Source: Dysgonomonas hofstadii
GTDB taxonomy: Bacteria; Bacteroidota; Bacteroidia; Bacteroidales; Dysgonomonadaceae
DNA: 50,286 bases
Assembly (NCBI RefSeq): GCF_014196915.1
Contig: NZ_JACIEP010000024.1
Span: 1-50,286 of the forward strand
Reading direction: 5' to 3'
Shown here: positions 26,377 through 44,733 of the stretch, one piece after another
How positions within the stretch are numbered: the first letter of the stretch is position 1
How the letters are laid out: each line of letters starts with the position of its first letter
Made by a program: the position numbers and the translations under genes
The notes under the pieces: model-generated
Database searches by the model: none
Seen by the model: only the letters and a program-made list of their open reading frames with translations
Told to the model about the DNA's origin: nothing

Positions 26377-26750
26377 GAGTTATGCCAATCAGTAGTCAAA
26401 TTATTATGATTGTAATAAGAAATCGTTCGTTTTTTTACTGCGCACAATCGAAGATTGCTTACCATCCTTTTTTCCTAAGCAAAAAAAGGATGCAAAAATG
26501 CTTTGGTGGCTCACCCTCCGTGCATAGGTTCCTACGACGGGCACCTGTCCGGTGAAGACGGCGTGAAACCAAATACTGTCTGAGCCGCAGGCGAGTTTAT
26601 TTGGTTTAGCCGGCAAGCCGATGACAGGTCGGCGGGGAACCAGGCACTAGCCTTTTGTTTCGTTTTGGGCAATGCCAAAATGAAAAACAAACCCGAAGGG
26701 CGCGTTAGTAAAAACGAACGATTAAAGCGAACTACTGATTCGCATGAGTT
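26377..26750 (+). mobile_element. structured repeat element copy 1 with 5-bp target duplication
   Basis: A 364-bp non-coding element at 26382-26745. Its ends are inverted repeats, ATGCCAATCAGTAGT and the complement of ATGCGAATCAGTAGT, one mismatch in 15. It is flanked by a 5-bp duplication GAGTT (26377-26381 and 26746-26750). Inside are hairpin H1 (CATCCTTTTTT 26463-26473 with AAAAAAGGATG 26482-26492), an outer stem ACCTGTC/GACAGGT (26543-26549 and 26623-26629) enclosing CGGC/GCCG and AACCAAAT/ATTTGGTT (26567-26574 and 26599-26606) with a GCC-GCA-GGC tip, and a third hairpin (26653-26691). A second copy lies at 44217-44728 in opposite orientation. No transposase is present; open frames inside are short and cross the hairpins. 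Confidence 0.85.
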
Positions 26751-26757
26751 ATAAGTT

Positions 26758-26878
26758 ATGAATGGAGGGTATAAAATGTGTCAGATGTGTCAGGTTTTAA
26801 CAAAACAAGTTTCTCGCAAAGACGCAGAGACGCAAAGAATGAAATTGTTAACTGTTCACTGTTCACTGTTGACTGAAT
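26758..26878 (+). repeat. mosaic of short dispersed repeat words
   Basis: This stretch carries GTGTCAGGTTTT, the word CTCGCAAAGACGCAGAGACG seen as a dispersed repeat in many Bacteroidetes, and two near-tandem ACTGTTCACTGTT units (26850-26870). No gene is visible. It leads into the 174-bp repeat at 26879. Confidence 0.5.
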
Positions 26879-27052
26879 GAAGTGTCAGGTTTTAGTTGAA
26901 AATGCTGCAAAAGTGTAACTTTTGTAACTTTTTTAAAATACAGAGTAAAAAGAGTAACTGGAGTTCTTTGTTGATTACCATCATTGGCACATTGGCATAT
27001 TTACTAATCAGCACATTGAACGGAGCGTAGCGAAGTGTCAGGTTTGTCAGGT
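26879..27052 (+). repeat. 174-bp dispersed repeat, copy 1
   Basis: Nearly identical, in reverse complement, to 48507-48680. Each copy is bounded by the direct word GAAGTGTCAGG (26879-26889 and 27032-27042 here). The inside contains GTAACTTTTGTAACTTTTTT and the phrase ATTGGCACATTGGCATAT. No open frame is kept between copies. It is probably a dispersed non-coding repeat. Confidence 0.8.
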
Positions 27053-27101
27053 TTTTTAAACAATATATAAAATTGATACGTTTCCTATAGAAAGAAGAGA
27101 T

Positions 27102-27109
27102 TATCTTTG
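27102..27109 (+). promoter_or_regulatory. -7 box of yihY promoter
   Basis: TATCTTTG matches TAnnTTTG. Transcription would start near 27116, which excludes the TTG at 27107 and supports the ATG at 27128 as start. Confidence 0.6.
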
Positions 27110-27127
27110 TCCATAATTTATCAGGCC

Positions 27128-28441
27128 ATGATCGATAAAATTAAGAACTTTATAACAAGAACCATACGGTTTCTTTCCTACGACATCTGGAGACTCAACA
27201 AAAGAGACAGGTCATCGAGGAAGATGAGCTTTTATAATATAGTCAAAGCCTTTATACTGACCATCCGCAATGTAGATGGATCGCAGCTATTCACCCGCGC
27301 TTCGGCACTAACGTACAGCACGTTGTTGTCAATAGTACCCCTGCTGGCCGTACTATTCGCCATAGCCAGAGGATTTGGATTCCAGAATATTGTAAAATCA
27401 CAACTTTTCAGCTATTTTGCAGGGCAGGAGGAGGTGCTGAAGAAAGCAATGGCATTCATCGACAGTTCGATAGAATATGCAAAAGGCGGAGTATTCCTGG
27501 GTATAGGTGTCATCCTTTTACTTTATACCGTAATAAATCTGCTTTCAAACATAGAAGACAACTTCAACAAGATATGGCAGGTGAAAAAGGGACGTACCTA
27601 TTTCCGTATGTTTACCGATTATCTCGCCCTGATCATCATTGCGCCCGTATTTCTCATCTGCAATGCCGGAGTTACAGTCTTACTGAATACGACAGCCGAC
27701 CAGCAATATTTTCTGGGTTTAGTCATAAGCCCTTTTATGAAAATAATACCTTTCCTCATCACGACATTGTTGTTTACCATTCTCTATATCTATCTTCCCA
27801 ATACGAAAGTAAAGTTTACAAGTGCCTTACTGGGCGGAGTCTTTACCGGAGTATGTTTCCAGATATTCCAGATGCTCTATATTAACGGACAGATATGGAT
27901 ATCGAAATATAATGCCATATATGGTAGTTTTGCAGCCTTACCATTATTATTACTATGGTTGCAGCTTACATGGTTTCTGGTTCTCTTCGGCGTACAATTA
28001 TCATTCGCATATCAGAATGTAAACAAATTCAGTTTTGATCACGAAACAGCCAATATAAGCCGGCGTTACAGGGATTTCGTCATTTTATTAGTTATGACTC
28101 TTATCATAAGACGGTTCGAAAAAGGGGAAAACCCATATACTGCCGACGAATTGTCGGAGCAGTACAAGATACCGACAAGACTGACAGGCGACACACTGTT
28201 TTATCTGCAACAAATAGGCCTGATAGTGGAAACCCCTACTGATGACGATCTGATCCCGGCTTACATCCCGGCAATCGATATAAACCAGATAACAGTAGGC
28301 TATTTATTCCAGAAAATGAATACATATGGATCGGAAGACTTTGCCATCGATATAGAATCAGAATTTAAGAAGGAATGGGAAACGATACTGGAAACCAAAG
28401 ACATTTCTACCTCAAACCCGAAACTATTAAAAGACATATAA
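27128..28441 (+). CDS. YihY/BrkB-family inner-membrane protein
   Basis: A 437-residue protein of the YihY/virulence factor BrkB family (once misnamed RNase BN). About six membrane segments fall in residues 50-310. Family landmarks: RASALTYSTLLSIVPLLAVL, NIEDNFNKIWQVKKGRTYFR, LPNTKVKFTSALLGGVFTG and YGSFAALPLLLLWLQLTWFLVLFGV. The C-terminal 120 residues form a cytoplasmic tail with a winged-helix look (YTADELSEQYKIPTRL). The biochemical role is unknown. It is followed by a palindromic intergenic repeat and a MATE gene on the same strand. Confidence 0.92.
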   Translation: MIDKIKNFITRTIRFLSYDIWRLNKRDRSSRKMSFYNIVKAFILTIRNVDGSQLFTRASALTYSTLLSIVPLLAVLFAIARGFGFQNIVKSQLFSYFAGQEEVLKKAMAFIDSSIEYAKGGVFLGIGVILLLYTVINLLSNIEDNFNKIWQVKKGRTYFRMFTDYLALIIIAPVFLICNAGVTVLLNTTADQQYFLGLVISPFMKIIPFLITTLLFTILYIYLPNTKVKFTSALLGGVFTGVCFQIFQMLYINGQIWISKYNAIYGSFAALPLLLLWLQLTWFLVLFGVQLSFAYQNVNKFSFDHETANISRRYRDFVILLVMTLIIRRFEKGENPYTADELSEQYKIPTRLTGDTLFYLQQIGLIVETPTDDDLIPAYIPAIDINQITVGYLFQKMNTYGSEDFAIDIESEFKKEWETILETKDISTSNPKLLKDI

Positions 28442-28445
28442 TTAT

Positions 28446-28554
28446 GAGATTTCAAGATCTAACATTTCAAGATTTCAAGATTGGATGTATTAAAAAGATA
28501 AATATTTATAATTAAAATTTTGAAATCTTGAAACTTGGAATTTTGAAATTAAAC
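28446..28554. repeat. palindromic repeat between yihY and MATE genes
   Basis: The whole intergenic gap is an imperfect palindrome of about 35-bp arms built from the word ATTTCAAGAT: three direct copies in the left arm (28446-28482) and inverted copies in the right arm (28517-28553). It could fold in mRNA or DNA and is probably a dispersed repeat. Confidence 0.65.
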
Positions 28555-28556
28555 TA

Positions 28557-29930
28557 ATGAAAACAGGTATTCACAATCTTACGGAAGGAAAGATCTTCCC
28601 CACCCTGCTTCGCCTGGCATTACCGCTTATGGGAACCAGTTTCCTGCAAATGGCATATACCCTGATGGCCATGTCGTGGGTAGGAAGACTGGGGACAGTA
28701 TCACACCCCGAGATAGCGACAAAATCGGAAGCGGCTATCGGGGCGATCGGCATGCTGCTCTGGCTGACTGCATCTGTCGCTTATCTGGCTATGATTGGTT
28801 CAGAGGTAGCCGTAGGTCAATCTATTGGAGCAAAGAAAATGAAACGGGCTGCTATTTACGCTTCTCATTCTACAACGGTATCTATTTTCTTAGCCATCTT
28901 ATGGGTAGCCATTCTTTTTATATTTGCCTACCCTATCCTCTCATTCTTTAAGCTGGAAGCCGACATTACGGCCGATGCCGTATTATATCTGAGAATACTC
29001 ACTATCAGCCTGCCTTTCCAGTTCCTGTCCTATAATTTTACAGGAATATATAATGGCGCGGGAAGGAGTATCGTACCATTCCGGAACAATGCGGCGGGAC
29101 TGGTTTTAAATATGATACTCGATCCTATACTCATGTTTGTCATGGGGCTGGGCTTGCATGGAGCTGCCATAGGAACGGTGTGCGCCCAACTTTTTGTATT
29201 TCTTCTGTTCTTCTATCAGATAAAGTACGGAAGCCGCATATTGGGCAATTTCTCCTTCTTCATTAAGCCTAAACTTATCTATCTGAAACGAATATTTTTC
29301 CTGGGAACACCTGTTTCAATAATGAACTCATTATATGCCATCATTAATATGAACCTTGCCCGTGTAGCGTCTATCCACGGCGGACATCTGGGAATGATGG
29401 CACAAACAACAGGTGGACAGATAGAAGCCGTTACATGGAATACCTCCCAGGGATTCTCTACTGCATTAAGTGCTTTTGTGGCACAGAATTATGCTGCCAA
29501 CAAAATCGAAAGAGGGAAAAAAGCATATATCTATACCATCAGGGTGATGCTCACATTAGGTGTCGCAGTCAGTATCTGCTTCATACTTTTCGGAGCACAG
29601 ATATTTGGTATTATCGTACCCGAAGAGAACGCTATGAAAGCAGGTGCAGAATATCTCTTTGTGATGGGACTGGTGCAGATATTCATGATGTTTGAACTCA
29701 CAACCCAGGGTATGTTTAATGGCATTGGCCGGACAATAGAACCGGCTGTTATCAGTATTACGTTTAACGCATTACGAATACCGCTGGCATATTATCTGGC
29801 TTCCCAGATGGGGATTACCGGAGTCTGGTGGGCTATCGCCATATCTACAGTCTGCAAAGGTATAATCCTGCCGACATGGTTTGCTGTGGTATATAAACGA
29901 ATAAAGAAGAAGCGGCCTAAGATAGGATAA
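28557..29930 (+). CDS. MATE-family efflux transporter
   Basis: A 457-residue inner-membrane transporter with twelve predicted helices in two similar halves. Landmarks: LPLMGTSFLQMAYTLMAMSW in helix 1, EVAVGQSIGAKK after helix 2, IYNGAGRSIVPF in the first half and GMFNGIGRTIEPAVISI in the second half. MATE pumps expel cationic drugs or metabolites using Na+ or H+. The substrate is unknown. It begins 3 bp after a palindromic repeat. Confidence 0.95.
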   Translation: MKTGIHNLTEGKIFPTLLRLALPLMGTSFLQMAYTLMAMSWVGRLGTVSHPEIATKSEAAIGAIGMLLWLTASVAYLAMIGSEVAVGQSIGAKKMKRAAIYASHSTTVSIFLAILWVAILFIFAYPILSFFKLEADITADAVLYLRILTISLPFQFLSYNFTGIYNGAGRSIVPFRNNAAGLVLNMILDPILMFVMGLGLHGAAIGTVCAQLFVFLLFFYQIKYGSRILGNFSFFIKPKLIYLKRIFFLGTPVSIMNSLYAIINMNLARVASIHGGHLGMMAQTTGGQIEAVTWNTSQGFSTALSAFVAQNYAANKIERGKKAYIYTIRVMLTLGVAVSICFILFGAQIFGIIVPEENAMKAGAEYLFVMGLVQIFMMFELTTQGMFNGIGRTIEPAVISITFNALRIPLAYYLASQMGITGVWWAIAISTVCKGIILPTWFAVVYKRIKKKRPKIG

Positions 29931-29962
29931 AAAGAGAGGGATATAATGACTTACATCCCTCT
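29927..29962 (-). terminator. terminator for queCF (minus strand)
   Basis: A perfect 8-bp stem AGAGGGAT/ATCCCTCT (29935-29942 and 29955-29962) followed on the minus strand by CTTTTT, 9 bp after the queF stop. Confidence 0.75.
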
Positions 29963-29970
29963 GCATACTT

Positions 29971-30447
29971 CTATTTGTTATTCATAATATACTGAGGATA
30001 ATATTTGAGAAGACGCTCTTTTGCCATCATCTCATACATGGTACCCGAACGCCCATAGTTACAATATGGATAAATACTGATCCCTCCCCGTGGCGTAAAT
30101 ACTCCTATAACCTCAATATACCTGGGATCCATCAGGCTTACCAAATCTTTCATTATTATATTCACACAATCCTCGTGGAAAGCTCCGTGATTTCTAAAAC
30201 TGAAAAGATATAGTTTCAGGCTTTTACTCTCTACCATCTTTACATCAGGGATATAGTTAATATGGATTGTCGCAAAATCGGGCTGTCCCGTAATCGGGCA
30301 CAAGCTTGTAAATTCGGGGCAGTTGAATGTTACCCAATAATCGTTATCCTGATGCTTATTTTCGAAAGCTTCTAATACTTCCGGGGCATAATTATCCTTA
30401 TATTCCGTTTTCGAACCTAAATGACTAAGACCTTCAATGCTACTCAT
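29971..30447 (-). CDS. queF: NADPH-dependent preQ0 reductase
   Basis: A 158-residue short-type QueF, which reduces the nitrile of 7-cyano-7-deazaguanine (preQ0) to preQ1 in queuosine synthesis. The thioimide-forming cysteine is C50 in [12 protein letters not shown] with the catalytic Asp57; the QueF motif [21 protein letters not shown] follows. Length fits the unimodular B. subtilis type. Its start overlaps queC by 8 bp, so the two steps preQ0 formation and reduction are coupled. QueD and QueE are not in the window. Confidence 0.97.
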
Positions 30448-31102
30448 AATCTCTCTTTTTTAAATAATTTTCCAATCCTTGTTTACGCAACTTACACGCA
30501 GGGCAATGTCCGCAGCCATCTGCGATTATACCATTGTAGCAGGTCAGGGTTTGATTGCGAACTATATCAAAAACGCCTAACTCATCCGCCAGTTCCCACA
30601 CCGCAGTTTTGTCGCGCCACATAAGTGGAGTATGAATTTGAAAGTGTTCGTCCATCGCCAAATTGATAGAAGCATTAGCAGACAGAATGAATGTATCTCT
30701 GCAATCAGGATAGCCACTATAATCGGCCTCCGATACACCTGTTACAATATGGCGGATACCATGCGAACGAGCAATAACAGCAGCAAAGGTCAGGAACAAT
30801 AGATTACGGCCGGGAACAAATGTATTCGGATACGAATCGGCTGGTTTCTCCTGATCCATTACTATATCGCTCGTTAACGAGTTCACTGATAATTGGCTGA
30901 TAATAGATGCATCCAACAGTTGGAACGGAACACCCGCTTCCTCAGCAATTATCTTCGCCACTTCTACCTCTTTAGAATGGCGTTGTCCGTAAGTAAAGCA
31001 TAGAGTGCGAACTGATGAAAAGTTTTTAAGTGCCCAATACAGGCACGTAGTAGAATCTTGTCCTCCGGAGAACAAGACTAGGGCTGATTCTTTATTATAC
31101 AT
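30440..31102 (-). CDS. queC: 7-cyano-7-deazaguanine synthase
   Basis: A 220-residue QueC, which turns 7-carboxy-7-deazaguanine into preQ0 with ATP and ammonia. The PP-loop is [10 protein letters not shown] (residues 10-19), and the zinc site is in [13 protein letters not shown] near the C-terminus. It is the first gene of the queCF operon. Confidence 0.97.
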
Positions 31103-31174
31103 TATAATTCTTTGTTTTTTACGTGGTTAATCCTAAGCTACACGGAAAAGAATATCTTTTCAATTACAAAAATA
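31103..31174 (-). promoter_or_regulatory. queC promoter and leader, possible preQ1-like aptamer
   Basis: A minus-strand -7 box TATTTTTG (31167-31174) gives a leader of about 58 nt. The leader holds a 4-bp stem CGTG/CACG with a 15-nt loop, followed by the A-rich tail TAAAAAACAAAG. That order (short stem-loop, then A-rich tail near the start codon) recalls preQ1-I riboswitches. The loop is longer than usual and the pseudoknot pairing is not clear, so the aptamer is only a suggestion; the promoter is better supported. Confidence 0.35.
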
Positions 31175-31250
31175 GTGAAATAAAATGAGAATGAGCTATA
31201 TCCCGAAAGTAAGATATGGCTCATTCTACATTTTTCTATATTGTTTGTGT

Positions 31251-32798
31251 CTATTCTCCCCGTTGGAACAGCTGCGAGGCTATCAATATACGCTGTATTG
31301 TTTCTCCATTCAGATTTTTGGTGCTTTTGGAAATATTCTGCTGAAACGGACCAGGTGTAGCTTTCTGTTGTCCGATCCTTTTATTGCCGTTATAGTAGAT
31401 TGCCGAATCGATATCGATAACAATATAACCATCTTTTTCTCTAAAATTTTTCCATTCATCAAAGTTTATCCTCTTCCCATTCAAGTAGGACTCTACTCTG
31501 TACTTTTTCAGATCGATTGAGTTTAGGAAGTTATCTTTACCTCCTGCAGCTTTTAGCATATCACTTTGTCTTACAAACTTCATTGCGTATGCTGCAATCA
31601 ATTTCTGTTGTATCGTTTCGCCACTTAGCTTTTTGTTTTTTTCGGAGACATTAAGAGTTCCTCCGACGGTATGGGCTATCTGCACTCCATTCCGGTAATA
31701 ACGCGCCGAATCTGTTGTTACAAGGATATACCCATCTATTCTTTCAAAGTTTTTCCACTGGTTAAAATCTATTCTTTCCCCATTCCGGAAAGCTTCCACC
31801 CGATACTCTTTCAGATCGATTGTGTCGGAAGGATCGGCAAGTTTGTTTTGCAAATAAACATTTTTTTCTGTACTTTCAACCTCTGGAAGTCCGCCTATTC
31901 TACTTGTAAGTTCGGGACGGGCAAAAAGGGATACGGCAATTGCAAATGCAGGAATCAGAAGTAGATACTTCAGTCTCGCATACGGATTGTTGTTGTTTTT
32001 TAACATCATAGTGATTCTTTTTTCGAGTTTACTGTGATTAAAGCTGTTGGTCATAAAGGTGAGATATTGTGAACCAGCAGCTTTTTTAATTAATAAAAAT
32101 TGATATGTTTTAGCATCGATGCCTGATTTTAGGACACTATCATCAGCTTCAAATTCATGAACATCCCGAAGTTCTCTCCGAAAAAGCCATGCAATAGGAT
32201 TATACCACTGAAATAGCAGAAAAAATTCCGAAATTAACAAGTCCAGGGAATGCTTATTCCGGATGTGAGATAATTCGTGCGTCAGAATTATATCCTTATT
32301 TTCATCATAGTCTTTCCGGGAGATTATTATATATTTCATCCAGCTAAATGAGGGGACAATTTTATCTACCAGAATAAGGGTCGCTTTATCCATTTTTTTC
32401 TTTTCGCAGCCTTTTGTAATAGATAATATGTATAGGATAGAATAGATAATACGCAGCAACACAAAGAATACTCCTGTTAGGTAAACGACACCGATGACAT
32501 TCATCCAGTTTATTGGAGTATCGCCTGCGGTTTCAATTACAGGTGTCTGATGTTGAGATACAGATATTACCTCTGTAGTTAACAATACCTCATATTTGGC
32601 AATAACATGTTGTGCTTCGAATGTATCAGCTTCTATTCTTATAAGAAAAATGAAGAGGCTACTGAGGTAAAACAAAAGAATACAGAGCCGGTTGATTCTG
32701 AAAAATACACTCTGGCTACATATCAGTTTATATATTATATAAAAGAATAGCAATAAAATAGAAATCTTGATATTGTATATTAATAGATCTACCATCAC
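31251..32798 (-). CDS. M56-family (BlaR1-like) sensor peptidase with duplicated C-terminal domain
   Basis: A 515-residue inner-membrane zinc peptidase. Membrane helices lie near 7-24, 35-54, 100-126 and 277-293. The M56 site is HELSH (174-178) with the third ligand glutamate in HEFEADD (about 217). These proteases sense a signal and cause cleavage of a BlaI-type repressor. The usual penicillin-binding sensor is missing. Instead the periplasmic C-terminus carries two tandem copies of a domain of about 100 residues: IDLKEYRVEAFRNGERIDF at 327 and IDLKKYRVESYLNGKRINF at 428, each ending in a GETIQ helix. It overlaps the repressor gene by 4 bp. Confidence 0.9.
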   Translation of the reverse strand: MMVDLLIYNIKISILLLFFYIIYKLICSQSVFFRINRLCILLFYLSSLFIFLIRIEADTFEAQHVIAKYEVLLTTEVISVSQHQTPVIETAGDTPINWMNVIGVVYLTGVFFVLLRIIYSILYILSITKGCEKKKMDKATLILVDKIVPSFSWMKYIIISRKDYDENKDIILTHELSHIRNKHSLDLLISEFFLLFQWYNPIAWLFRRELRDVHEFEADDSVLKSGIDAKTYQFLLIKKAAGSQYLTFMTNSFNHSKLEKRITMMLKNNNNPYARLKYLLLIPAFAIAVSLFARPELTSRIGGLPEVESTEKNVYLQNKLADPSDTIDLKEYRVEAFRNGERIDFNQWKNFERIDGYILVTTDSARYYRNGVQIAHTVGGTLNVSEKNKKLSGETIQQKLIAAYAMKFVRQSDMLKAAGGKDNFLNSIDLKKYRVESYLNGKRINFDEWKNFREKDGYIVIDIDSAIYYNGNKRIGQQKATPGPFQQNISKSTKNLNGETIQRILIASQLFQRGE

Positions 32799-33166
32799 TT
32801 TTTATTTCTATGTGCACCCTCTACTTTCTCAACTAATTGTTTTAAGTCCTCCAAGGAGATTTTTTCCTCTTCAACAAGGGTAGAAACTACCCCCAAATAA
32901 GAGTTATTAAAATACTTGTTAATGACCTTTTTCAGAGTGTCTTTTTTAAAATTATCTTTACTCACTAAAGCATAGTATTTATAAGCTTTTCCAACAGGCT
33001 CGTGCCCGACAAATCCTTTGTCCTCGAGTATGCGTATTAGTGTGGATATCGTATTTACATGTGGTTTGGGATTTTTATATAAATCCTGTATATCTTTCAC
33101 CTGCATTGGTCCTTGCGTCCAGAAAAAAGACATTATTTCTTCTTCTTTTTTAGTTAAATTTTTCAT
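32795..33166 (-). CDS. BlaI/MecI/CopY-family repressor
   Basis: From the ATG at 33166 the protein has 123 residues; a GTG at 33184 lies at or before the predicted transcription start and is not favoured. The winged helix reads LTKKEEEIMSFFW, GPMQVKDIQDLY, VNTISTLIRILEDKGFVGHE and GKAYKYYALVS, typical of BlaI. The C-terminal helices (TLKKVINKYFNNS and EEEKISLEDLKQLV) dimerise. It is the first gene of the pair with the M56 sensor and should repress its own operon until cleaved. Confidence 0.93.
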   Translation of the reverse strand: MKNLTKKEEEIMSFFWTQGPMQVKDIQDLYKNPKPHVNTISTLIRILEDKGFVGHEPVGKAYKYYALVSKDNFKKDTLKKVINKYFNNSYLGVVSTLVEEEKISLEDLKQLVEKVEGAHRNKK

Positions 33167-33186
33167 ATTTAGTATTTTATTCACGA

Positions 33187-33218: not shown

Positions 33219-33302
33219 ATGTCATAGTTAATAAATGTAGATAAATTAATATCACCAAAAGATATTTTTGAAGTTTAATTTTTAAAAAAGGAATAATTAT
33301 TA

Positions 33303-33310: not shown

Positions 33311-33322
33311 CATTCACCAAAC

Positions 33323-35612: not shown

Positions 35613-38600
35613 ATGCTAATATTAAACTCTTTTTCACGAACAAAGAGCGATGCCTTAATTAAATTGACATTAGTAATACTTTTACTTATGTGCATTCCGG
35701 CACAGGTATACTCACAGAACCAAAATATTACGATCACCAGCAAACAAGCGAAAATTTCTACCTTGTTTGAGGATATTGAGTCACAAACAGGTATGACAAT
35801 AGCCTATAATTCGGCTATAATAGACATTAATAAAGTCGTCTCTGTAAATATCAGCAATAAGACTTTATCTGAGGCCCTTACCGAAATACTGAAAAACACA
35901 GGAACAACCTTTACTATACAGGGAAAACAAATTATTATCTCTAAGGCAGACGGTCAGGCTAAAAGGAGAATTAGCGGTACCATAACTGATATAACCGGAG
36001 AACCGATAATCGGAGCCACTGTAAAGATAAAAGGGACAAATACTGCCACTATTACAGATATGGATGGTAAATATACAATAGAAGCCAGTCCAAATTCTGT
36101 CTTGCAGGTTTCGTATGTTGGATTTACAACCGCAGATACGCCCATAGGAGATAAACAACAGGCTGATCTGATTCTTCAGGAAGATACTCAGGCTCTGGAT
36201 GAAGTTGTTGTTGTTGGATATGGCGTACAAAGGAAACGCGATCTTACAGGTGCTGTATCGTCTATCAAGATGAGTGATTCCCCCGTGGGAACATTCTCAT
36301 CTGCTAGTCACGCCCTAGCCGGGAAGGCGGCAGGCCTTAGAGTAACTCAAACAACGGCACAACCCGGAGCAGGAGCTTCATTCCGCATTCGTGGGGAAAC
36401 TTCTATCAATGCCAGTAATCAGCCGTTGATTATTGTTGACGGTTTTCCAATTTCATCATCATCATCTCCAAGCAGTGGTAACCGTTACGATGCAGGAAGC
36501 CAGGATAATGTATTGGAAATGATGAACCCGAATGATATAGAAAGTATAGAAGTTCTCAAAGATGCTTCGGCAACAGCTATTTACGGTTCCCGTGCAGGTC
36601 ATGGTGTAATCATCATTACCACAAAACGGGGTAAAGCAGGTACTCCAAATGTTACTTATTCAGGAAATGTTGCAGTACAATCTATGAGTTCAAAATACAA
36701 GATGCTTGATGCGCAAGGATATATGAATCTTAGTAATATGTATGAACTGGAGACCTGGAGACGTAGTACCGGAACAGGCATTTATGCCGATTATGTTACT
36801 CCAAGTTCAACAGCAGCTTATACTCCTAAATATACGGACGAAGAAATCGCAAATGCGAAAACGACAGACTGGATGGATGAGATTACACGTACCGGTTTTC
36901 AGACATCGCACAATATTTCTATTACAGGTGGAACTGAAAAATCAAAATATCTGGCTTCTTTAAATTATTTTGATCAGGAAGGTGTCCTCAAAAATAGCGA
37001 TATGCAAAGGATAACAGCTAATCTGAATAGTGACTATGAAATATCGAAATATGTAAAAGCCGGATTATCATTCAACATTAGCCGAAATAAGTATGGCAAT
37101 GTGCCATTAGGTACAGGAGGAAATGAATATTCGGGTATCATAGCTGCTGCAACATTCTTTGAACCAAACATTCCTGTATATGATGAAAATGGGAATTATT
37201 CTGAATCTAACGTTTACAAACAACGACCTAACCCGGTTTCTCTGTTGGAAATAGAGGATAAGACAACCAAAGACAGGGTACTGGGTACAGGATTTATTTC
37301 AGTAGAACCGATCAAAGGCCTCATCCTTAAGGCTAATCTTGGATTCGACCGTAAATCGGCAAAACGACAAAACTATCTGCCTACAACTACTTTATATGGT
37401 AAAACACAGAATGGTAGTGCTTACCAAAGCCAAACTGATGGAATGGACTACTTATTCAATCTAACAGCTAACTATATGAAAACAATAGGTAAGCATAGTT
37501 TTACAGCTTTAGCGGGTTACGAATGGCAAGAATTTAACAATGAGTGGTTTAGTGCGGGCAATACTGATTTTTCCCTTGACAGTTTCCTTTACAACAATTT
37601 GAATGCAGGTTCGGGCGAAAAGTCTGTTGCATCAAATTCCACTAAAAATTCTTTGGTTTCGGTTTTTGGACGTGTCAATTATTCATATGCAAATAAATAT
37701 TTAATTACGGCTACATTACGTGCAGATGCATCTTCTAATTTTAATAAAGATAATCGTTGGGGTTATTTTCCGTCAGTGTCAGCAGGATGGCGCTTTATCG
37801 ATGAAGATTTCATGAAAGATATTCAGCACATTTTATCAAATGGTAAATTACGTGGAGGATATGGCCAAACTGGTAATACAAGTGTAGGCAACCGCACGCA
37901 AAGCTATTATAAATCAGACAACAAGTATGTTTTCGGAAGTACAGGGACGAATGGAATGGTAATTACATCTTTAGGAAATTCGGGAATAACATGGGAAACT
38001 ACGAGTGAATTTAATATAGGGTTAGACCTAGGTTTCCTAAACAGCCGTATCAATTTCACCGCAGAATATTACAACCGTGAGATTTCGGATCTACTAGTCA
38101 CTAGCAAACGCTTGCCATCTTATAATGAATTGACCACTATAACTGCAAATAGTGGATCCACACAGAGTAAAGGTGTCGAATTTACCCTCAATACAGTAAA
38201 TATCAAAAGCCAGGATTTAGTATGGACTTCGGATTTAACATTCTATAAGTATAAAGATACATGGAAAGAGCGTGATCCAAACTGGATACCTGCAGCTTAT
38301 CAATCAGAAAAAGATCCTATCCGGGCTATATTTACATATAAATCAGACGGCCTATTACAACCCGGGGAAGAAGCTCCGGCATGGCAAAAAGGATTATTGC
38401 CCGGACAAATCAAGCTAAAAAAGATGAACGCTGATGGAGACCAGAGTGTGCTTGAAGATAGTGATAAGGTATACATTGGTACGACCGATCCGGATTTTTC
38501 TTTTGGATTCAATAATACAGTACGTTACAAGAATTTCGATTTCAACATGTATCTCTATGGCGAAATAGGACGTTGGCGCGACGCCAGTTACTACGATAGC

Positions 38601-38987
38601 TGGTTACCTTATCGCTATTTTGCACCAAGCGGCGGTCTTTATAATATGTCTCAAAAAGCTCTTGATAGCTGGACAATGGATAATCAGAATTCATCGACAC
38701 CAAGTTTGTTGACTTCAAGTTATTCTGCAGGAGATTATTTTTATAAAAAAGTATCATACCTGCGTTGCCGTAATATTACTGTAGGCTATACCATACCGGG
38801 ACTTAAAAATATAGCACGTAGCATAAGGGTAAATGTCAGTATAAACAATCCGTTCGTGATTAGTAACTGGAACGGTTTGGATCCGGAAACAGACTATAAT
38901 CCGTCAGATTCAAATACTGAAAATGCATGGAGTTATTCTTATCCGAATGTACGTACATTCAGCTTCGGAGTGGATATTAGTTTTTAA
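35613..38987 (+). CDS. SusC-type TonB-dependent transporter with STN signalling domain
   Basis: A 1124-residue outer-membrane glycan importer. Order: signal peptide (to about 35, PAQVYSQ), STN domain (about 38-108, ITSKQAKISTLFEDIESQTG), carboxypeptidase-like beta-sandwich (about 117-200, ISGTITDITGEPIIGATVKI), plug (TGAVSSI, PLIIVDGFPI, YGSRAGHGVIIITTKRG) and a 22-strand barrel ending in FSFGVDISF. The STN domain means that it also signals to the FecR/ECF pair just upstream. It works with the SusD protein 21 bp downstream. The substrate is not evident but GH89 downstream suggests a GlcNAc-bearing glycan. Confidence 0.97.
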   Translation: MLILNSFSRTKSDALIKLTLVILLLMCIPAQVYSQNQNITITSKQAKISTLFEDIESQTGMTIAYNSAIIDINKVVSVNISNKTLSEALTEILKNTGTTFTIQGKQIIISKADGQAKRRISGTITDITGEPIIGATVKIKGTNTATITDMDGKYTIEASPNSVLQVSYVGFTTADTPIGDKQQADLILQEDTQALDEVVVVGYGVQRKRDLTGAVSSIKMSDSPVGTFSSASHALAGKAAGLRVTQTTAQPGAGASFRIRGETSINASNQPLIIVDGFPISSSSSPSSGNRYDAGSQDNVLEMMNPNDIESIEVLKDASATAIYGSRAGHGVIIITTKRGKAGTPNVTYSGNVAVQSMSSKYKMLDAQGYMNLSNMYELETWRRSTGTGIYADYVTPSSTAAYTPKYTDEEIANAKTTDWMDEITRTGFQTSHNISITGGTEKSKYLASLNYFDQEGVLKNSDMQRITANLNSDYEISKYVKAGLSFNISRNKYGNVPLGTGGNEYSGIIAAATFFEPNIPVYDENGNYSESNVYKQRPNPVSLLEIEDKTTKDRVLGTGFISVEPIKGLILKANLGFDRKSAKRQNYLPTTTLYGKTQNGSAYQSQTDGMDYLFNLTANYMKTIGKHSFTALAGYEWQEFNNEWFSAGNTDFSLDSFLYNNLNAGSGEKSVASNSTKNSLVSVFGRVNYSYANKYLITATLRADASSNFNKDNRWGYFPSVSAGWRFIDEDFMKDIQHILSNGKLRGGYGQTGNTSVGNRTQSYYKSDNKYVFGSTGTNGMVITSLGNSGITWETTSEFNIGLDLGFLNSRINFTAEYYNREISDLLVTSKRLPSYNELTTITANSGSTQSKGVEFTLNTVNIKSQDLVWTSDLTFYKYKDTWKERDPNWIPAAYQSEKDPIRAIFTYKSDGLLQPGEEAPAWQKGLLPGQIKLKKMNADGDQSVLEDSDKVYIGTTDPDFSFGFNNTVRYKNFDFNMYLYGEIGRWRDASYYDSWLPYRYFAPSGGLYNMSQKALDSWTMDNQNSSTPSLLTSSYSAGDYFYKKVSYLRCRNITVGYTIPGLKNIARSIRVNVSINNPFVISNWNGLDPETDYNPSDSNTENAWSYSYPNVRTFSFGVDISF

Positions 38988-39008
38988 TTCAAAAAAGAAT
39001 TTAGAAAA

Positions 39009-40481
39009 ATGAAAAAGACAAATTTATATATAATAGCATTACTATGTATTACATTCATCTGGCAAAGTTGTAGCCTTAATTCAGAAGATTATAGTGAAGT
39101 AGACTCCTCCCGATACCCTGCCAACGGACAGGATGCTTTTGATTTGGTGACAGGAAATGCTTATGCCGCATTTCGTAATAATAGCTATGATGGAGCATTT
39201 AATGTAGCCACAGGATTCCATCTTTTGGGCGATATGGCTACCGATTTTGGTTTCTGCTCATGGGGTGAAGGAAATTGGGGACAGCTTGAGTTTGCTAATT
39301 TTCAGAATGTAGATGGAGAACGTAACCCAAGAAGAAACTGGGAACCTTATTTGCCTTGGATAAGTAAGATGGAATTGACAATAGACCGTATCAACAGTAT
39401 TAATACAGATGCCGATATGGATGAAACCCTCAAGAAACGCTACATTGCAGAGTTGGAATGTGGACAGGGCTTTATGGCATTCCTTATGTGGGATTTTTAT
39501 GGACCTCTCATTATTGCTGATCTGGAAACACTAAAAAATCCTCAGGACGAAATTATTCTTCCCCGTAAGTCTAATGAAGAAACCATTGCATATATAGAAA
39601 CTAAGTTGAAAGCCGGTATCGGTATTTTAGACAAGACTTACGATTACAATAGCTCAAATTACGGACGTTTTACCGAAGGTTTGTGCCATATGCTATTGCT
39701 TAAGCTTTATATGCAAACACAACAATGGGATAAAGCCATAGAACAAGGCCGCGAGCTGATGGATGGTGGATATGGTTACTCTCTTGTAACTGATGCAGGT
39801 AATGCGTCTTCAGCTTATGCGAATATTTTCGCATCAGCTAACGAAGGTAACAAAGAAACGATCTGGGCTGTAAACTGCTTACGCGAATATCAAAGCCATT
39901 TATGGTACGCTCATGTAATTTCGTGGGGTGGTTATAAGATGGTCCGCCATTTCTATGAAACATTCGAAACAGGTGATCAACGTCTGACAGTTATTACAGA
40001 CAATGGTTCGACAGATGGTGTTTTACCTGTAAAATATGATATGGTTGACCGTGTTGGTGATGAATGTTATACTGATTGGATAGTATATCGTTATGCTGAT
40101 GCCATCACCTTATTGGCCGAAGCCCTTGTGCATAAACAAGGTGCAGTTGTACAAGAGTCGGTAGACCTACTTAATCAGGTTCGTACCCGTGCCGGACTTG
40201 AGGCTTATAAAATGTCAGACTTCAGTAGTGCAGATGATTTTATTGACAAGTTGTTATGGGAACGCGCTCATGAACTTTGGTACGAGGGTTGCCGCCGTCA
40301 AGATCTGATCCGCAATAATAAATATGTGGAAATCATGTCCGAAAAGTGTATCCGGATGGGAAAAACAGATTATATAACAAGTCTGGGTACCAATTCACAT
40401 CTTTTCCCACTTCCATCTTCTGCTATAAATGAAGGTAATAAAGGTGGATTCAATTATCAGAATCCAGGCTACGGAGACTAG
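39009..40481 (+). CDS. SusD/RagB-family glycan-binding lipoprotein
   Basis: A 490-residue SusD homologue. The lipobox cysteine is C21 (FIWQSC). TPR-like helices run through the protein, for example GFMAFLMWDFYGPLIIADLE, RFTEGLCHMLLLKLYMQTQQW, LLWERAHELWYEGCRRQDLIR and the C-terminal LFPLPSSAINEG typical of the family. It caps SusC at the cell surface and binds the glycan. A hairpin terminator follows, so the downstream GH89 gene may be expressed at lower level. Confidence 0.96.
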   Translation: MKKTNLYIIALLCITFIWQSCSLNSEDYSEVDSSRYPANGQDAFDLVTGNAYAAFRNNSYDGAFNVATGFHLLGDMATDFGFCSWGEGNWGQLEFANFQNVDGERNPRRNWEPYLPWISKMELTIDRINSINTDADMDETLKKRYIAELECGQGFMAFLMWDFYGPLIIADLETLKNPQDEIILPRKSNEETIAYIETKLKAGIGILDKTYDYNSSNYGRFTEGLCHMLLLKLYMQTQQWDKAIEQGRELMDGGYGYSLVTDAGNASSAYANIFASANEGNKETIWAVNCLREYQSHLWYAHVISWGGYKMVRHFYETFETGDQRLTVITDNGSTDGVLPVKYDMVDRVGDECYTDWIVYRYADAITLLAEALVHKQGAVVQESVDLLNQVRTRAGLEAYKMSDFSSADDFIDKLLWERAHELWYEGCRRQDLIRNNKYVEIMSEKCIRMGKTDYITSLGTNSHLFPLPSSAINEGNKGGFNYQNPGYGD

Positions 40482-40565
40482 CTTTAATTTTATGACAGAC
40501 TATCCAACCGCCCCTTTCTTCTGCTCTAAAGGATAATAAAAAGACCTTAAGTAGATATTATAAAT

Positions 40566-40624
40566 AAACAGCTTCCCATATGAAATTAGGAAATCTAGTA
40601 TATAATGAGGGGAGCTGTTTTTTG
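40566..40624 (+). terminator. terminator between susD and GH89 genes
   Basis: AAACAGCTTCCC (40566-40577) pairs with GGGGAGCTGTTT (40609-40620, one G-U) and is followed by T6. The loop is long (31 nt). An ATG at 40580 lies in the loop, so it is unlikely to be the GH89 start. Confidence 0.7.
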
Positions 40625-40666
40625 ATTAGATTAATTAATTTTATTTATATAGATAAAAAGCTCGAA

Positions 40667-42838
40667 ATGACGCATAAAATTATTTATTTAGTAATAACGA
40701 CTATTGTCTTATTGGGATGTTCACCAACGAAAAGTACAGCTGACGATTTGGTTAACCGGATTTCTAATCATACTGCGAAAGGCATTCAGACAGAGATTAT
40801 AAAATCAGAGAATGAAAAAGATTATTTCGAAATAGAAGGTAAAAACGGAAATATAATCGTCCGGGGGAATAATACAAGCAGCATTACAGCCGGCCTCAAC
40901 TGGTATCTGAAATATGTGGCGGGAATACACATTTCATGGAATAATCTTACACAGGATTTTCCAGATCAGCTCCCCGTTCCCGAACGGATGATAAGAAAAG
41001 AAACAGATCAACATCTGCGTTATTATCTCAATTATTGTACTTATTCTTATTCTATGGCTTTTTGGGATTGGCCCCGATGGGAAAAGGAGCTTGACTGGAT
41101 GGCTTTGCATGGAATTAATCTGGTACTGAGCATTACTGGCAATGAAGTCGTATGGTACAACCTGCTGAAAAGAAACGGATATACAACAGAAGAAATAAAT
41201 GAATTTATTGCAGGCCCGGCATTTTTGGCGTGGTGGCAGATGAATAACCTCGAAAGATGGGGAGGCCCTAATCCCCATGAATGGTATAGGAATCAAGAGA
41301 TATTACAGAAAAAGATTATTGCACGGATGCACGAGTTAGGAATAGAACCAGTCATGCCCGGATTTGCGGGCATGGTACCTCGTAACATCGGCGAAAAGCT
41401 TGGTTATAATATTTCTGATCCCGGTACGTGGTGTACTTTTAACCGTCCTGCCTTCATAAAACCAGATGATCCGCATTTCAACAAATTTGCCGATATGTAT
41501 TACGAAGAACTGGAAAAGTTGTATGGAAAAGTAAAATACTATGCAATAGATCCGTTTCATGAAGGGGGAAGTGTAGAAGGTATAGATCTTGATGCGGCAG
41601 GACAAACTATTATGGCTGCAATGAAACATGCAAACCCCGATGCCATATGGGTAGCGCAGGCGTGGCAGGCAAATCCTCGTCCGGCGATGATAGAAAACCT
41701 CAAACAACATGATTTGCTTGTATTAGACCTGTATAGTGAGAAAATGCCCCAGTGGGGTGATCTTAATTCTGCTTGGTACCGTCCGGATGGTTATGGTAAG
41801 CACAACTGGCTATACTGTATGCTGCTAAACTTTGGCGGGCGTGTAGGACTTCATGGACGAATGGATCATGTAATAAATGGATTCTACCAGGCTCGTGGAC
41901 ACCAGAACGGAAAGACATTATCGGGAGTTGGAACCACTCCGGAGGCGATAGAAAATAATCCAGTTATGTTTGAACTGTTATATGAACTGCCCTGGCGGAG
42001 TGAAAAATTCACAAAAGAAGAATGGCTATCCTCATACACAAAAGCACGGTATGGAGAATCGAATGCGGAAGTAGATGAAGCATGGAGCCTGTTAGCTCAG
42101 TATCCTTACAATTGTCCGAGAGAATATCCGGGAGAAGGTACGGTAGAGTCTTTATTTTGTGCCCGTCCGAGTATCAATCCTAAACGGTCATCAACATGGG
42201 GTTCTGCGTTGCTTTTCTATGAAGCGGATATTACAAGGCAGGCTGCCGAAAAGCTTCTGTCTGTCGCAGACCTGTTTGATGATAATGTGAATTTCAAATA
42301 CGATCTGGTAGATGTCTTGCGTCAGAGCCTTTCTGATAAGGGGAATGAACTTTCGTGCAGAATTGGAAAGGCGTATGAAAATAAGGATATTGAAAACTTC
42401 AAAGTTTTGACAGATCGTTTTCTGTATATTATCCAATGTCAGGACAAATTACTGGCAACCCAATCGAACTTCAAGATTGGCAACTGGTTGGAACAGGCAA
42501 AATCACTATCTCAGGCAAAGGAGAACCGAGACCTGTATGAATGGAATGCCCGTACATTAATAACTGTATGGGGTAACAAATCGGCTGCCGAAAAAGGAGG
42601 ACTGCATGATTATTCCGGTCGTGAATGGAACGGGCTTTTATCTGATTTGTACTACTATCGCTGGAAATTGTTTTTTGATAATACGACAAAAGAAATGTTG
42701 GGAGAAAATGTATCTCCGATAGATTTTTATGCAATAGAAGAAGCGTGGACACATCAACAGAAAGAATACAATAACAAACCAGAAGGTAATGTATTGCAGG
42801 TAGCTGCAGATGTTTACAAAGAAGTATTTGGAAACTGA
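40667..42838 (+). CDS. GH89 alpha-N-acetylglucosaminidase lipoprotein
   Basis: From the ATG at 40667 the product has 723 residues with a lipoprotein signal (VITTIVLLGC); an in-frame ATG at 40580 lies in the upstream terminator loop. GH89 enzymes (human NAGLU, C. perfringens AgnC) release terminal alpha-linked GlcNAc, as found on heparan sulfate ends and on gastric mucin O-glycans. Motifs: NAEVVWYN-like GNEVVWYNLLKR, AGPAFLAWWQMNNLERWGG, GFAGMVPRNI, catalytic E299 in DPFHEGG and E440 in YELPW, which match human E316 and E446. It is the only catabolic enzyme adjacent to this SusCD pair. Confidence 0.96.
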   Translation: MTHKIIYLVITTIVLLGCSPTKSTADDLVNRISNHTAKGIQTEIIKSENEKDYFEIEGKNGNIIVRGNNTSSITAGLNWYLKYVAGIHISWNNLTQDFPDQLPVPERMIRKETDQHLRYYLNYCTYSYSMAFWDWPRWEKELDWMALHGINLVLSITGNEVVWYNLLKRNGYTTEEINEFIAGPAFLAWWQMNNLERWGGPNPHEWYRNQEILQKKIIARMHELGIEPVMPGFAGMVPRNIGEKLGYNISDPGTWCTFNRPAFIKPDDPHFNKFADMYYEELEKLYGKVKYYAIDPFHEGGSVEGIDLDAAGQTIMAAMKHANPDAIWVAQAWQANPRPAMIENLKQHDLLVLDLYSEKMPQWGDLNSAWYRPDGYGKHNWLYCMLLNFGGRVGLHGRMDHVINGFYQARGHQNGKTLSGVGTTPEAIENNPVMFELLYELPWRSEKFTKEEWLSSYTKARYGESNAEVDEAWSLLAQYPYNCPREYPGEGTVESLFCARPSINPKRSSTWGSALLFYEADITRQAAEKLLSVADLFDDNVNFKYDLVDVLRQSLSDKGNELSCRIGKAYENKDIENFKVLTDRFLYIIQCQDKLLATQSNFKIGNWLEQAKSLSQAKENRDLYEWNARTLITVWGNKSAAEKGGLHDYSGREWNGLLSDLYYYRWKLFFDNTTKEMLGENVSPIDFYAIEEAWTHQQKEYNNKPEGNVLQVAADVYKEVFGN

Positions 42839-42934
42839 ATGAAATAAAAACTACCTGAAAATGAATAGAAGCCGAAAGAGAAAGTTGAAGATATGATATA
42901 GCAGTGAACATTCTTCAAGGGGGAAAAAATGTCT

Positions 42935-42942
42935 TACCTTTG
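42935..42942 (+). promoter_or_regulatory. -7 box for the hypothetical/RarD operon
   Basis: TACCTTTG matches TAnnTTTG, 35 bp before the start of the small gene. Confidence 0.6.
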
Positions 42943-42977
42943 TCCTGCCTTTAATATTAACTCTATAAGAAATCAGA

Positions 42978-43280
42978 ATGAAGGAAAAAGTAATATCAAG
43001 AATTAAAACGCTTGGAATTCCTGAACTTGTGAATATTGAACATCTGGAAGAATTGAATGGAGACTATATCAATTTGGAGAGTCTTTTACCCAATGGAAAA
43101 CGAGGTAAGATTTTAGATGATAATAAAAAATATCTGGCAACGCAGGTTGAAATTCCGCACAGTGACAGATGCTATGGAATAGCGGCCGATGAAAATATGA
43201 TTGCCATATTTCAGTATGGTTGCGAAGGGAAAGAAAGCGAATTAGTTGCATGGATAAAATTGAACCAGGATCTGGATTAA
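42978..43280 (+). CDS. hypothetical small acidic protein
   Basis: A 100-residue soluble protein without signal peptide or membrane segment. I do not recognise a family. It reads as an alpha/beta protein: an N-terminal helix VISRIKTLGIPELVNI, then strands around KKYLATQVEIPH, CYGIAADENMIAIFQYG and ESELVAWIKL. Two cysteines (CYG and YGC) are present. It has its own promoter box and ends 2 bp before the ATG of the RarD-type transporter, so the two are co-transcribed. Confidence 0.75.
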   Translation: MKEKVISRIKTLGIPELVNIEHLEELNGDYINLESLLPNGKRGKILDDNKKYLATQVEIPHSDRCYGIAADENMIAIFQYGCEGKESELVAWIKLNQDLD

Positions 43281-43282
43281 CG

Positions 43283-44188
43283 ATGTCATCTACACACAAA
43301 AATTTAAGTTACAATCAGGGTATTCTTTATGCTCTGGCATGTTACGTTGCCTGGGGGCTCTTTCCGGTTTTCTGGAAAGCTATTACCGGGGTACCTGCCG
43401 TAAATATACTGGCTCACCGTATTGTTTGGTCTTTTGCTTTTCTCCTTATTTGGGTATTGCTTACCAACCGGGAAACTTTTGCCAGTTATATAAAACAACC
43501 TAAACTTTTGATCAGGCTTGGTTTGGCAGGATTTGTCATCAGTGCCAACTGGGGTATATACATCTATGCAGTAGGGAGTAATCATATTGTTGAAGCCGGT
43601 TTGGGTTACTATATAAATCCGTTGGTCAACGTATTATTTGGTTATATTTTTTTAAAAGAACGTCTGGCTACCATGCAGAAAATAGCTGTTCTGCTGGCTC
43701 TGACCGGTGTTGTGTATTTTACAATCAGTTACGGCAAATTTCCCTGGATATCACTACTTCTTGCTACTTCTTTCGGTTTGTACGGACTCTTGAAAAAGAA
43801 AGCTAATCTTGAATCTATGCCTGCGCTTACAGTAGAAACGATGATGGTTTTTCCGTTTGCTTTAGCATTCTTGTTTTATACAGCAGAAAGTAGTGTAGCA
43901 ACACCCTTTTTCCCTTCATCTGCGATAATCAGCTTATTATTGGTTATTAGTGGCCTTATCACAGCTATCCCACTCTTTTGGTTCGGGAAGTCTGCACAGG
44001 TTATCCCTTTATCTACAATGGGGTTTATCCAGTATCTAAGTCCGACTCTTCAGCTACTTCTTGGCGTATTTGTATATGGTGAAACTTTTGGTATAGAGTA
44101 CCTTGTTTGCTTTACTTTTGTATGGTCTGGATTAGCATTTTATACAATCAGTATTCTTAAAGGTAAAAAAGTGACATTCGCTAAATAA
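43283..44188 (+). CDS. rarD: RarD-type EamA-family transporter
   Basis: From the ATG at 43283 the protein has 301 residues; the open frame to 43220 overlaps the small upstream gene and is not needed. Ten membrane helices in two EamA halves. RarD landmarks: GILYALACYVAWGLFPVFWKAI near the start, AHRIVWSF, SANWGIYIYAVGSNHIVEAGLGYYINPLVNVL and IPLFWFGKSAQVIPLSTMGFIQYLSPTLQLLLGV in the second half. RarD proteins are thought to export drugs or metabolites such as chloramphenicol-like compounds or amino acids; the substrate here is unknown. Confidence 0.93.
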   Translation: MSSTHKNLSYNQGILYALACYVAWGLFPVFWKAITGVPAVNILAHRIVWSFAFLLIWVLLTNRETFASYIKQPKLLIRLGLAGFVISANWGIYIYAVGSNHIVEAGLGYYINPLVNVLFGYIFLKERLATMQKIAVLLALTGVVYFTISYGKFPWISLLLATSFGLYGLLKKKANLESMPALTVETMMVFPFALAFLFYTAESSVATPFFPSSAIISLLLVISGLITAIPLFWFGKSAQVIPLSTMGFIQYLSPTLQLLLGVFVYGETFGIEYLVCFTFVWSGLAFYTISILKGKKVTFAK

Positions 44189-44211
44189 AATGCCTATACT
44201 CTATTATTATT

Positions 44212-44733
44212 TATTTATGCCAATCAGTAGTTAAATTTAATCGTTCTATTCATCTAACGCGCCCTTCGGGTTTGTTTTTCATTTTGGCATTGCCCAAAAC
44301 GAAACAAAAGGCTAGTGCTTTGTTCCCCGCCGACCTGTCAACGGCTTGCCGGCTAAACCAAATAAACTCGCCTGCGGCTCAGACAGTATTTGGTTTCACG
44401 CCGTCTTCACCGGACAGGTGTCCGTCGTAGGAACCTATGCACGGAAGGCTGACGCACGACAGGGAATTACCCTACCTTGGGGTGGCTTCGCCCGGTGGCA
44501 TTAAGCCGTAGTGCGGGGCACCCGTCAGGCGAGAGGGGCGTGAAATGGAAAGCGTCCGCAGGACAATCTTTCCATTTAGTCCCTGAGCCTGTAACGGGTC
44601 GCACGGAGGATGAGCCACCAAAGACTTTTTGCATTCTTTTGGGGCTTTGGCCAAAAGAATGACAAGCAATCTTCGATTGTGCGTAGTAAAAAACAATAGA
44701 ACGATTAAAGCGAACTACTGATTCGCATTATTT
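44212..44733 (-). mobile_element. structured repeat element copy 2 with 5-bp target duplication
   Basis: A 512-bp non-coding element at 44217-44728, in opposite orientation to copy 1. The ends are inverted repeats of about 34 bp (ATGCSAATCAGTAGTT...TTTAATCGTTCTATT, four mismatches). The flanks are TATTT on both sides (44212-44216, 44729-44733). It keeps hairpin H1 (44632-44642 with 44651-44661) and module A (ACCTGTC/GACAGGT at 44333-44339 and 44413-44419), and adds an inverted, diverged module B (ACCCGT/ACGGGT at 44520-44525 and 44594-44599; AAATGGAAAG/CTTTCCATTT at 44543-44552 and 44568-44577; tip GTCC-GCA-GGAC). The extra block is bounded by GCACGG (44439, 44601). One end supplies the stop codon of the neighbouring GH92 gene. 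Confidence 0.85.

Follow-up and report, generated by a model that had tools for sequence, protein, structure and literature searches.

Miniature inverted-repeat transposable elements of an IS982-like type in Dysgonomonas hofstadii carry an inverted pair of a structured unit, probably folded as RNA

The 50,286 nucleotides considered here (the window: contig NZ_JACIEP010000024.1, positions 1 to 50,286 of the forward strand, from the Dysgonomonas hofstadii assembly GCF_014196915.1) contain, at 26382-26745 and 44217-44728, two copies of an interspersed non-coding element on opposite strands. It can be held with good confidence that these two loci are miniature inverted-repeat transposable elements (MITEs) of Dysgonomonas, apparently moved by an IS982-like type of element, and that their cargo is a structured unit which would work as a folded single strand, likely RNA. 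The parts of this reading differ in firmness: the evidence is strong that the loci are MITEs of an IS982-like element, and strong also that they carry a conserved structured unit as an inverted pair; the activity of the unit would probably be that of a folded RNA, a point of moderate strength as judged from sequence. An earlier note on this DNA, made from the letters of the window, had proposed two copies of a structured element with compensatory changes in its hairpins. The identification of the copies as transposed MITEs, the IS982-like partner and the recognition of the interior as an inverted pair of one unit go beyond that proposal.

Terminal repeats, target duplications and the transposase partner

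Both loci are assigned as transposed MITEs because each is bounded by 16-base-pair (bp) terminal inverted repeats, ATGCSAATCAGTAGTT with small variants, and by a perfect 5-bp target duplication, GAGTT around copy 1 and TATTT around copy 2. Direct reading confirmed both spans, and the ends given in the earlier note turn out to be the ends of the elements to the base. The parts of the two copies are as follows.

26377-26381, unstranded: target-site duplication GAGTT, left of copy 1
26382-26745, plus: copy 1, 364-bp MITE, module 1 and centre lost
26382-26397, plus: copy 1, left terminal inverted repeat, one mismatch
26421-26434, plus: copy 1, terminal stem, left arm, perfect complement of 26710-26723
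26445-26457, plus: copy 1, small hairpin a (CAATCGAAGATTG)
26463-26492, plus: copy 1, hairpin H1, that is, hairpin b of the half with the lost module
26516-26528, plus: copy 1, deletion junction at a CCGTGC repeat
26542-26630, plus: copy 1, module 2, long bulged hairpin of four helices (covariation; covariance model R1)
26654-26691, plus: copy 1, hairpin b of the half with module 2
26710-26723, plus: copy 1, terminal stem, right arm
26730-26745, minus: copy 1, right terminal inverted repeat
26746-26750, unstranded: target-site duplication GAGTT, right of copy 1
44212-44216, unstranded: target-site duplication TATTT, low end of copy 2
44217-44728, minus: copy 2, 512-bp MITE, both modules
44217-44232, plus: copy 2, terminal inverted repeat, low end
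44239-44250, minus: copy 2, terminal stem arm, perfect complement of 44695-44706
44271-44308, minus: copy 2, hairpin b of the half with module 2
44332-44420, minus: copy 2, module 2
44519-44600, plus: copy 2, module 1, inverted relative to module 2
44632-44661, minus: copy 2, hairpin H1, that is, hairpin b of the half with module 1
44667-44679, minus: copy 2, small hairpin a
44695-44706, minus: copy 2, terminal stem arm
44713-44728, minus: copy 2, terminal inverted repeat, high end, whose TAG closes the open reading frame (ORF) 44715-47033
44729-44733, unstranded: target-site duplication TATTT, high end of copy 2

The two copies belong to about 40 loci in the window's own genome (G000; other G-numbers denote other genomes and L-numbers loci) that hold copies of the element, some of them partial. 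A DNA search of this genome gave 107 matching pieces, which were grouped by position, with 40 of 81 candidates scored; a pattern search added repeat pairs that enclose other interiors. Over all loci gathered by then, the list has 84 pairs of inward-facing repeats, wrong pairings included, with 76 distinct right ends, L145 and four other right ends being paired twice. Exact 5-bp duplications flank 30 of these 84 pairs as against the 3.8% expected from mis-paired flanks of different elements; in an earlier list, exact duplications were seen in 22 of 90 pairs at 5 bp (2.4 expected) and in 0 of 90 at 6 bp.

Comparison with related genomes is in keeping with insertion. The homology between the gene neighbouring copy 2 and its orthologue in G011 starts 4 bases past the element edge, and the element itself has no match in G011. 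The last codons of that gene, the 772-amino-acid ORF 44715-47033, were supplied by the insertion, since its stop codon sits in the terminal repeat of copy 2; the G011 orthologue has a different end. The product presumably resembles a GH92 glycosidase. Around copy 1, the matches to rnpB and to the next gene, which are 33 bp apart in G021, lie 791 bp apart in G000. The RNase P RNA gene itself (class A, 243 bits) occupies 25956-26311 and directly adjoins copy 1.

With regard to the features by which MITEs are known, the copies have no coding capacity, terminal inverted repeats whose 16 bp lie within the usual 15-30 bp, a target duplication, and ends in common with an autonomous element. Indeed, the earlier note's statement that there is no protein gene here holds: no ORF of at least 90 amino acids lies inside either copy, ORF 44715-47033 merely terminating within the repeat. 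Their lengths, 364 bp for copy 1 and 512 bp for copy 2, exceed the 70-300 bp given for MITEs in PMC3733652, size being no mechanistic feature.

The autonomous element was sought through the same ends. Exact terminal repeats occur in 10 of the 384 genomes of the order (8 of 205 genera), a reversed-pattern control giving one match. Outside the genus, two repeat pairs, L251 and L256, enclose broken frames of a DDE transposase, with the Pfam families DDE_Tnp_1_3 and DDE_Tnp_1, respectively, above cutoff. A protein search of 28 genomes then yielded two open copies, L260 (G001, a Dysgonomonas) and L261 (G546, from another genus of the family), each with 1064 bp between the repeats, a 303-amino-acid ORF and an exact 5-bp duplication (TAATT and ATATA, respectively). 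Scanned with NCBIfam only, these apparently intact copies have the IS982 transposase as their best match (E 6.6e-34 for L260, 5.1e-33 for L261), and the partner is named IS982-like because the scores lie below the curated cutoff. When four MITE copies were compared with the two insertion sequences, significant common DNA was confined to the terminal 15-27 bp, from which it follows that the interior of the MITE is not derived from the insertion sequence. An L260-type transposase, or a close relative, would presumably have moved the MITEs in trans.

An inverted pair of one structured unit

Between the terminal repeats lie two inverted copies (<- ->) of a single structured unit, composed of a long bulged hairpin of four helices (the module), a linker and a second hairpin. 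Copy 2 has two inverted modules; copy 1 has the second only, and its 89-base module 2 differs from that of copy 2 by one base. The segment missing from copy 1 is that between two short CCGTGC repeats, which lie 162 bp apart in copy 2. Profile searches gave 172 module matches, 164 of them of full length, and among the 44 distinct elements with at least two modules the arrangement is <> in 42, the others being <>> and <<>. Elements with two modules are 504-924 bp long, with a median of 565. Each half, from the centre of the element outward, consists of the module, the linker, a run of T with G, hairpin b, the small hairpin a, the terminal stem and the terminal repeat.

Along this series the linkers are mostly constant and the stems variable. 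The hairpin-b interval contains a perfect stem of at least 7 bp, with many different arms, in 139 of 162 distinct halves, and, close to the terminal repeat, 8 bases (GTTCNNNN) are identical at both ends in 19 of 40 elements, as against 7.3 when shuffled (maximum 16). Four elements with both modules and without terminal repeats (L039, L049, L057 and L062) have terminal stems, of the form GGTC...GACC in three, which again compensate. It may be added that in several copies (L040, L044, L053) the loop of hairpin b contains a short repeat, AATCAACGATCGACGAAGCGAAGGCGAG, as if this preferred hairpin tips.

The hairpin which the earlier note called H1 has the arms CATCCTTTTTT and AAAAAAGGATG in copy 1 (26463-26473 and 26482-26492) and CATTCTTTTGG and CCAAAAGAATG in copy 2 (44651-44661 and 44632-44642, minus strand), three base pairs being altered on both sides between the copies, exactly as had been described. 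The contrasts between internal modules (ACCTGTC/GACAGGT versus ACCCGT/ACGGGT and others) call for a different reading in part. They had been taken as equivalent parts of the two copies, but because copy 1 lost one of the two units they are in fact contrasts between the paralogous modules 1 and 2. Their compensatory nature stands, being borne out by 105 modules of the genus and 56 distinct matches outside it.

In folding, both strands of both copies are far more stable than their shuffled counterparts (z -9.5 and -8.3 for the two strands of copy 2, -7.7 and -7.2 for those of copy 1), and each time 0 of 100 shuffles fold as well. This near equality of the strands, together with the two-fold symmetry of the element, is what would be expected were the hairpins to serve as DNA, in other words as cruciforms or single-strand folds which, in replication or transposition, aid the movement or survival of the element. 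Another interior between the same repeats, that of L142 (4945-5189) and L144 (4733-4977), points the same way in being strongly palindromic; at 245 bp and with exact duplications, these two are the only ones with a truly different interior among the four pairs that have exact duplications and no detected module, L143 and L159 retaining remnants of the unit or an undetected module. Against this, repeat pairs with unstructured interiors do exist (L140, L163), though without exact duplications, and the unit is present in other families without these repeats. Moreover, L260 and L261 lack the cargo yet share the ends and have exact duplications, so that the transposase appears to need the repeats and not the hairpins. 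A role of the hairpins as DNA is on balance considered unlikely, and a folded single strand, likely RNA, remains the preferred reading of the cargo.

Separately, a dispersed motif, AAACCTGACA, and its complement occur in the spacer after copy 1 (26760-27060) and in the interiors of some repeat-bounded elements (L071, L080, L140).

Covariation, strand bias and genomic setting

The conservation of shape can be gauged from two alignments. The first holds 105 distinct modules of the genus, drawn from the 164 of full length after the removal of locus L076 (overlap), of repeats, of rows with N and of rows outside 78-92 nucleotides, the last of which leaves it without long-tip modules. Two-sided changes occur in 15 of 20 predicted pairs. 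Over 21 named pairs, 15 of which show two-sided change, 97.5% of cells are paired as against 80.5% when shuffled and 27.6-49.9% when slid, and 404 cells carry two-sided changes as against 132 when shuffled, these shuffled controls ignoring the relatedness of the modules. The second comes from a search with the covariance model outside the genus, over 40 loci picked from previous matches to this model or to the terminal repeat, and has 57 matches, 56 of them distinct. Here, 94.7% of cells are paired (68.7% shuffled, 29.7-45.6% slid) and 20 of 21 pairs show two-sided change, the set having been both collected and fitted with the model, which is a bias towards structure. In both, variation is lower in the internal loops and the tip motif, and the helices change widely yet stay paired. 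The conserved fold in RNA or single-stranded DNA that the earlier note proposed is thereby supported, with strong covariation within the genus and in the outside set.

Rfam, searched over the whole window at gathering thresholds, gave no family match for the elements, which agrees with the earlier note's recognition of no named RNA family. Ranked by E-value, the elements match best to models of eukaryotic microRNAs, at scores far short of gathering (mir-343, E 0.0017, 26.2 of 70 bits; MIR918, E 0.0058, 35.5 of 268 bits). One match alone in these scans exceeds its gathering score, and it is a neighbouring tRNA in L307. With nothing above the Rfam gathering scores for the elements, a known RNA family was rejected. 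Neither a lack of covariation nor a match to a known element with chance hairpins, the two outcomes which the earlier note had named as telling against itself, was encountered, covariation being gauged against shuffled and slid alignments and not by R-scape. Literature searches confined to the open PMC set showed no description of the element among the records listed.

The strand on which the fold acts may be approached through half-compensated pairs, since such a pair reads as G.T on one strand and as A.C on the other. On the outward strand, modules of the genus have 22 distinct G.T events and 12 A.C events (46 and 16 cells), a count which omits the mixed pair 12-81 (U-G, C-G, U-A); with it, the cells are 93 and 16. 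Hairpin b adds 10 G.T and 4 A.C events from the 132 of 162 distinct halves that could be parsed (an earlier parsing took 132 of 154), which with the modules makes 32 against 16 (one-sided p 0.015). Outside the genus the outward strand has 16 G.T against 4 A.C events (46 and 5 cells, p 0.006), these events not being independent and the set having been collected and aligned with a G.U-tolerant model. Such a bias towards G.U over A.C speaks for a single strand that folds, probably as RNA. DNA hairpins, too, tolerate G.T better than A.C, and this counts for the DNA alternative set out above.

The same bias is relevant to the idea that there is no selection at all, the palindromes being kept by template switching between arms and by hairpin exchange, with covariation as a mutational by-product. 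The scarcity of mismatched intermediates is consistent with such a process, as is the shuffling of hairpin cassettes between modules. Correction between arms, however, predicts no excess of G.T over A.C, such as the one seen outside the genus. Nor would it account for the asymmetric loops (GTR opposite A; GAAG or GCAG opposite CAA or TGA), which are largely constant as the flanking helices are replaced. An origin without selection is accordingly judged improbable.

On the preferred reading, the unit would be read from the centre of the element outward as a folded single strand, most likely an RNA produced by transcription through the element, and the MITE would be one vehicle for its copying. 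Candidate actions of such an RNA are the stabilising or processing of neighbouring transcripts, or the binding of a protein. Relevant here is the position of the elements among genes. The 26 module-bearing elements of G000, one of the two L066 pairings being left out of the count, lie between divergent genes in 10 cases, convergent genes in 8 and tandem genes in 7, with 1 at a contig edge. That none of the 26 lies inside a predicted ORF of at least 120 amino acids would fit an ordinary bidirectional transcription terminator, or an mRNA-stabilising repeat, spread by transposition like several known bacterial MITEs; PMC3733652 states that transcription of bacterial MITEs is frequent and that they can make mRNA more or less stable. 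But the 10 elements between divergent genes have no upstream gene to end, and a hairpin of four helices with conserved internal loops is more elaborate than termination requires. A plain terminator was therefore rejected on gene context, and the broader form of this explanation is regarded as distinctly unlikely.

Several observations weigh against the reading of the loci as IS982-like MITEs with an RNA-like cargo. No partner transposase was found in G000 by protein search (best match E 1.2e-4, 25% identity), and the IS982 scores of L260 and L261, 117.6 and 114.7 bits, are below the curated cutoff of 130. The DNA search found no match to the element in 8 of 25 Dysgonomonas genomes. The mixed gene contexts of the G000 elements suggest no fixed regulatory place. 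Whole hairpins have been exchanged between units (P1 of one type with P3 of another), which probably inflates the covariation counts. Finally, the wobble asymmetry is modest, the three tip classes having G.T to A.C events of 6:3, 11:5 and 5:4, one of them nearly even, and the dependence among events and the leniency of the model mentioned above lie on the same side.

Distribution and comparison with known systems

By DNA match, the element occurs in 17 of 25 Dysgonomonas genomes, and of the 19 named records with a module end 16 are Dysgonomonas and 3 Prevotella. The module model reaches further, with matches in 33 of 61 genomes and 9 of 15 genera of the family (26 of 48 genomes outside the genus) and in 12 of 384 genomes and 8 of 205 genera of the order, 7 of those 12 genomes being outside the family; the strict filters of these searches lose weak matches. 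Several species have from 20 to more than 70 module matches per genome, with at most 72 candidates scored per genome. An exact hairpin pattern found only G000 among 296 genomes of the phylum, the pattern being too strict to gauge distribution, and the terminal-repeat pattern had 0 matches in a genome contig collection from which records near the window's genome were possibly excluded.

Of the 40 loci outside the genus, only those of G450 showed a pair of the terminal repeats, 8 of 12 having one. Within the family, copies without terminal repeats are single units in G546 and G704 and an inverted pair in G709. In other families (G397, G500, G587, G392, G554, G617) it is mostly single, with the proviso that a second, more diverged module could go undetected beside it. 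In G359 several units share one orientation: L320 (1-1801) has three full units and a partial one, unevenly spaced, and after each of them come a hairpin and TACAAGCG. The same-orientation units of L320 and L330 invite comparison with integron attC sites, folded sites at which an integrase recombines cassettes. Around the module, some 100-340 bp are common to the copies in G397, G500 and G704, and often more to those in G546. Ten proteins near units outside the genus include no shared neighbouring gene.

A more tentative proposal, to which somewhat less than even weight is given, is that the unit represents an as yet undescribed family of structured RNAs (or of functional single-stranded DNAs) across Bacteroidales, made of a four-helix hairpin with two conserved internal loops and a second hairpin after it, which in the Dysgonomonas family became enclosed by IS982-like terminal repeats. 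Such a family would have kept its shape with nearly all of its helix sequence replaced, in single, same-orientation and inverted-pair copies. The IS982-like terminal repeats would then be a second means of spreading it.

Other origins were considered and set aside. A plasmid origin was rejected, plasmid records having no match, and a phage origin likewise, two pattern scans of viral contigs giving 0 matches and one Microvirus record sharing 46 bases of one hairpin. That record, MT135430.1 (L068, 4351-4394), is of a phage from pig gut and has the hairpin-b linker and stem outside its annotated genes. A retron or group II intron was rejected on anatomy, the combination of terminal repeats, target duplication and DDE partner being in keeping with a transposon.

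The usual view of MITEs is that they are insertion sequences which have shrunk. In the present case the ends are IS982-like and the cargo is a fold, conserved in shape, with a wider distribution of its own; the mobile frame is of a known kind, and the cargo is not in Rfam. With so many module matches per genome in several species, the element offers a natural experiment on the reasons for which mobile repeats retain RNA-like folds; the alignment and covariance model supplied make it directly testable against transcriptomes.

As to known systems, the likeness to the IS982 family lies in a DDE transposase with IS982 as its best NCBIfam match, in terminal inverted repeats and in a short duplication; the differences are a partner below the curated cutoff and a MITE interior that is not derived from the insertion sequence. 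REP and REPIN sequences, associated with RAYT tyrosine transposases, are likewise dispersed palindromes. The REPIN pairs its hairpin units in inverted orientation, as here. A unit of more than 100 nucleotides, terminal repeats, target duplication and DDE-type frames between the repeats nevertheless separate the present element from them, even though the letters GTAG do occur inside the terminal repeat, REPs being described in PMC3733652 as 20-40 bp long and GTAG-tagged. The RUP, NEMIS, ERIC and Nezha MITEs are alike in having no coding capacity and terminal inverted repeats, with structured transcripts reported for the class in PMC3733652; the 70-300 bp given there differ from the two-module lengths above, and the present unit also exists outside a MITE. 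Lastly, bcr1 and related repeats of Bacillus cereus are interspersed at tens of copies per genome, with mobile features and a link to a 5-base motif (PMC6542083), and Bcr1 is listed with a predicted conserved structure (PMC2267715). These repeats, of 100-400 bp, are set apart by description and not by sequence: the present elements have 16-bp terminal inverted repeats in common with an IS982-like insertion sequence, AT-rich 5-bp duplications and an inverted pair of units, and belong to another phylum.

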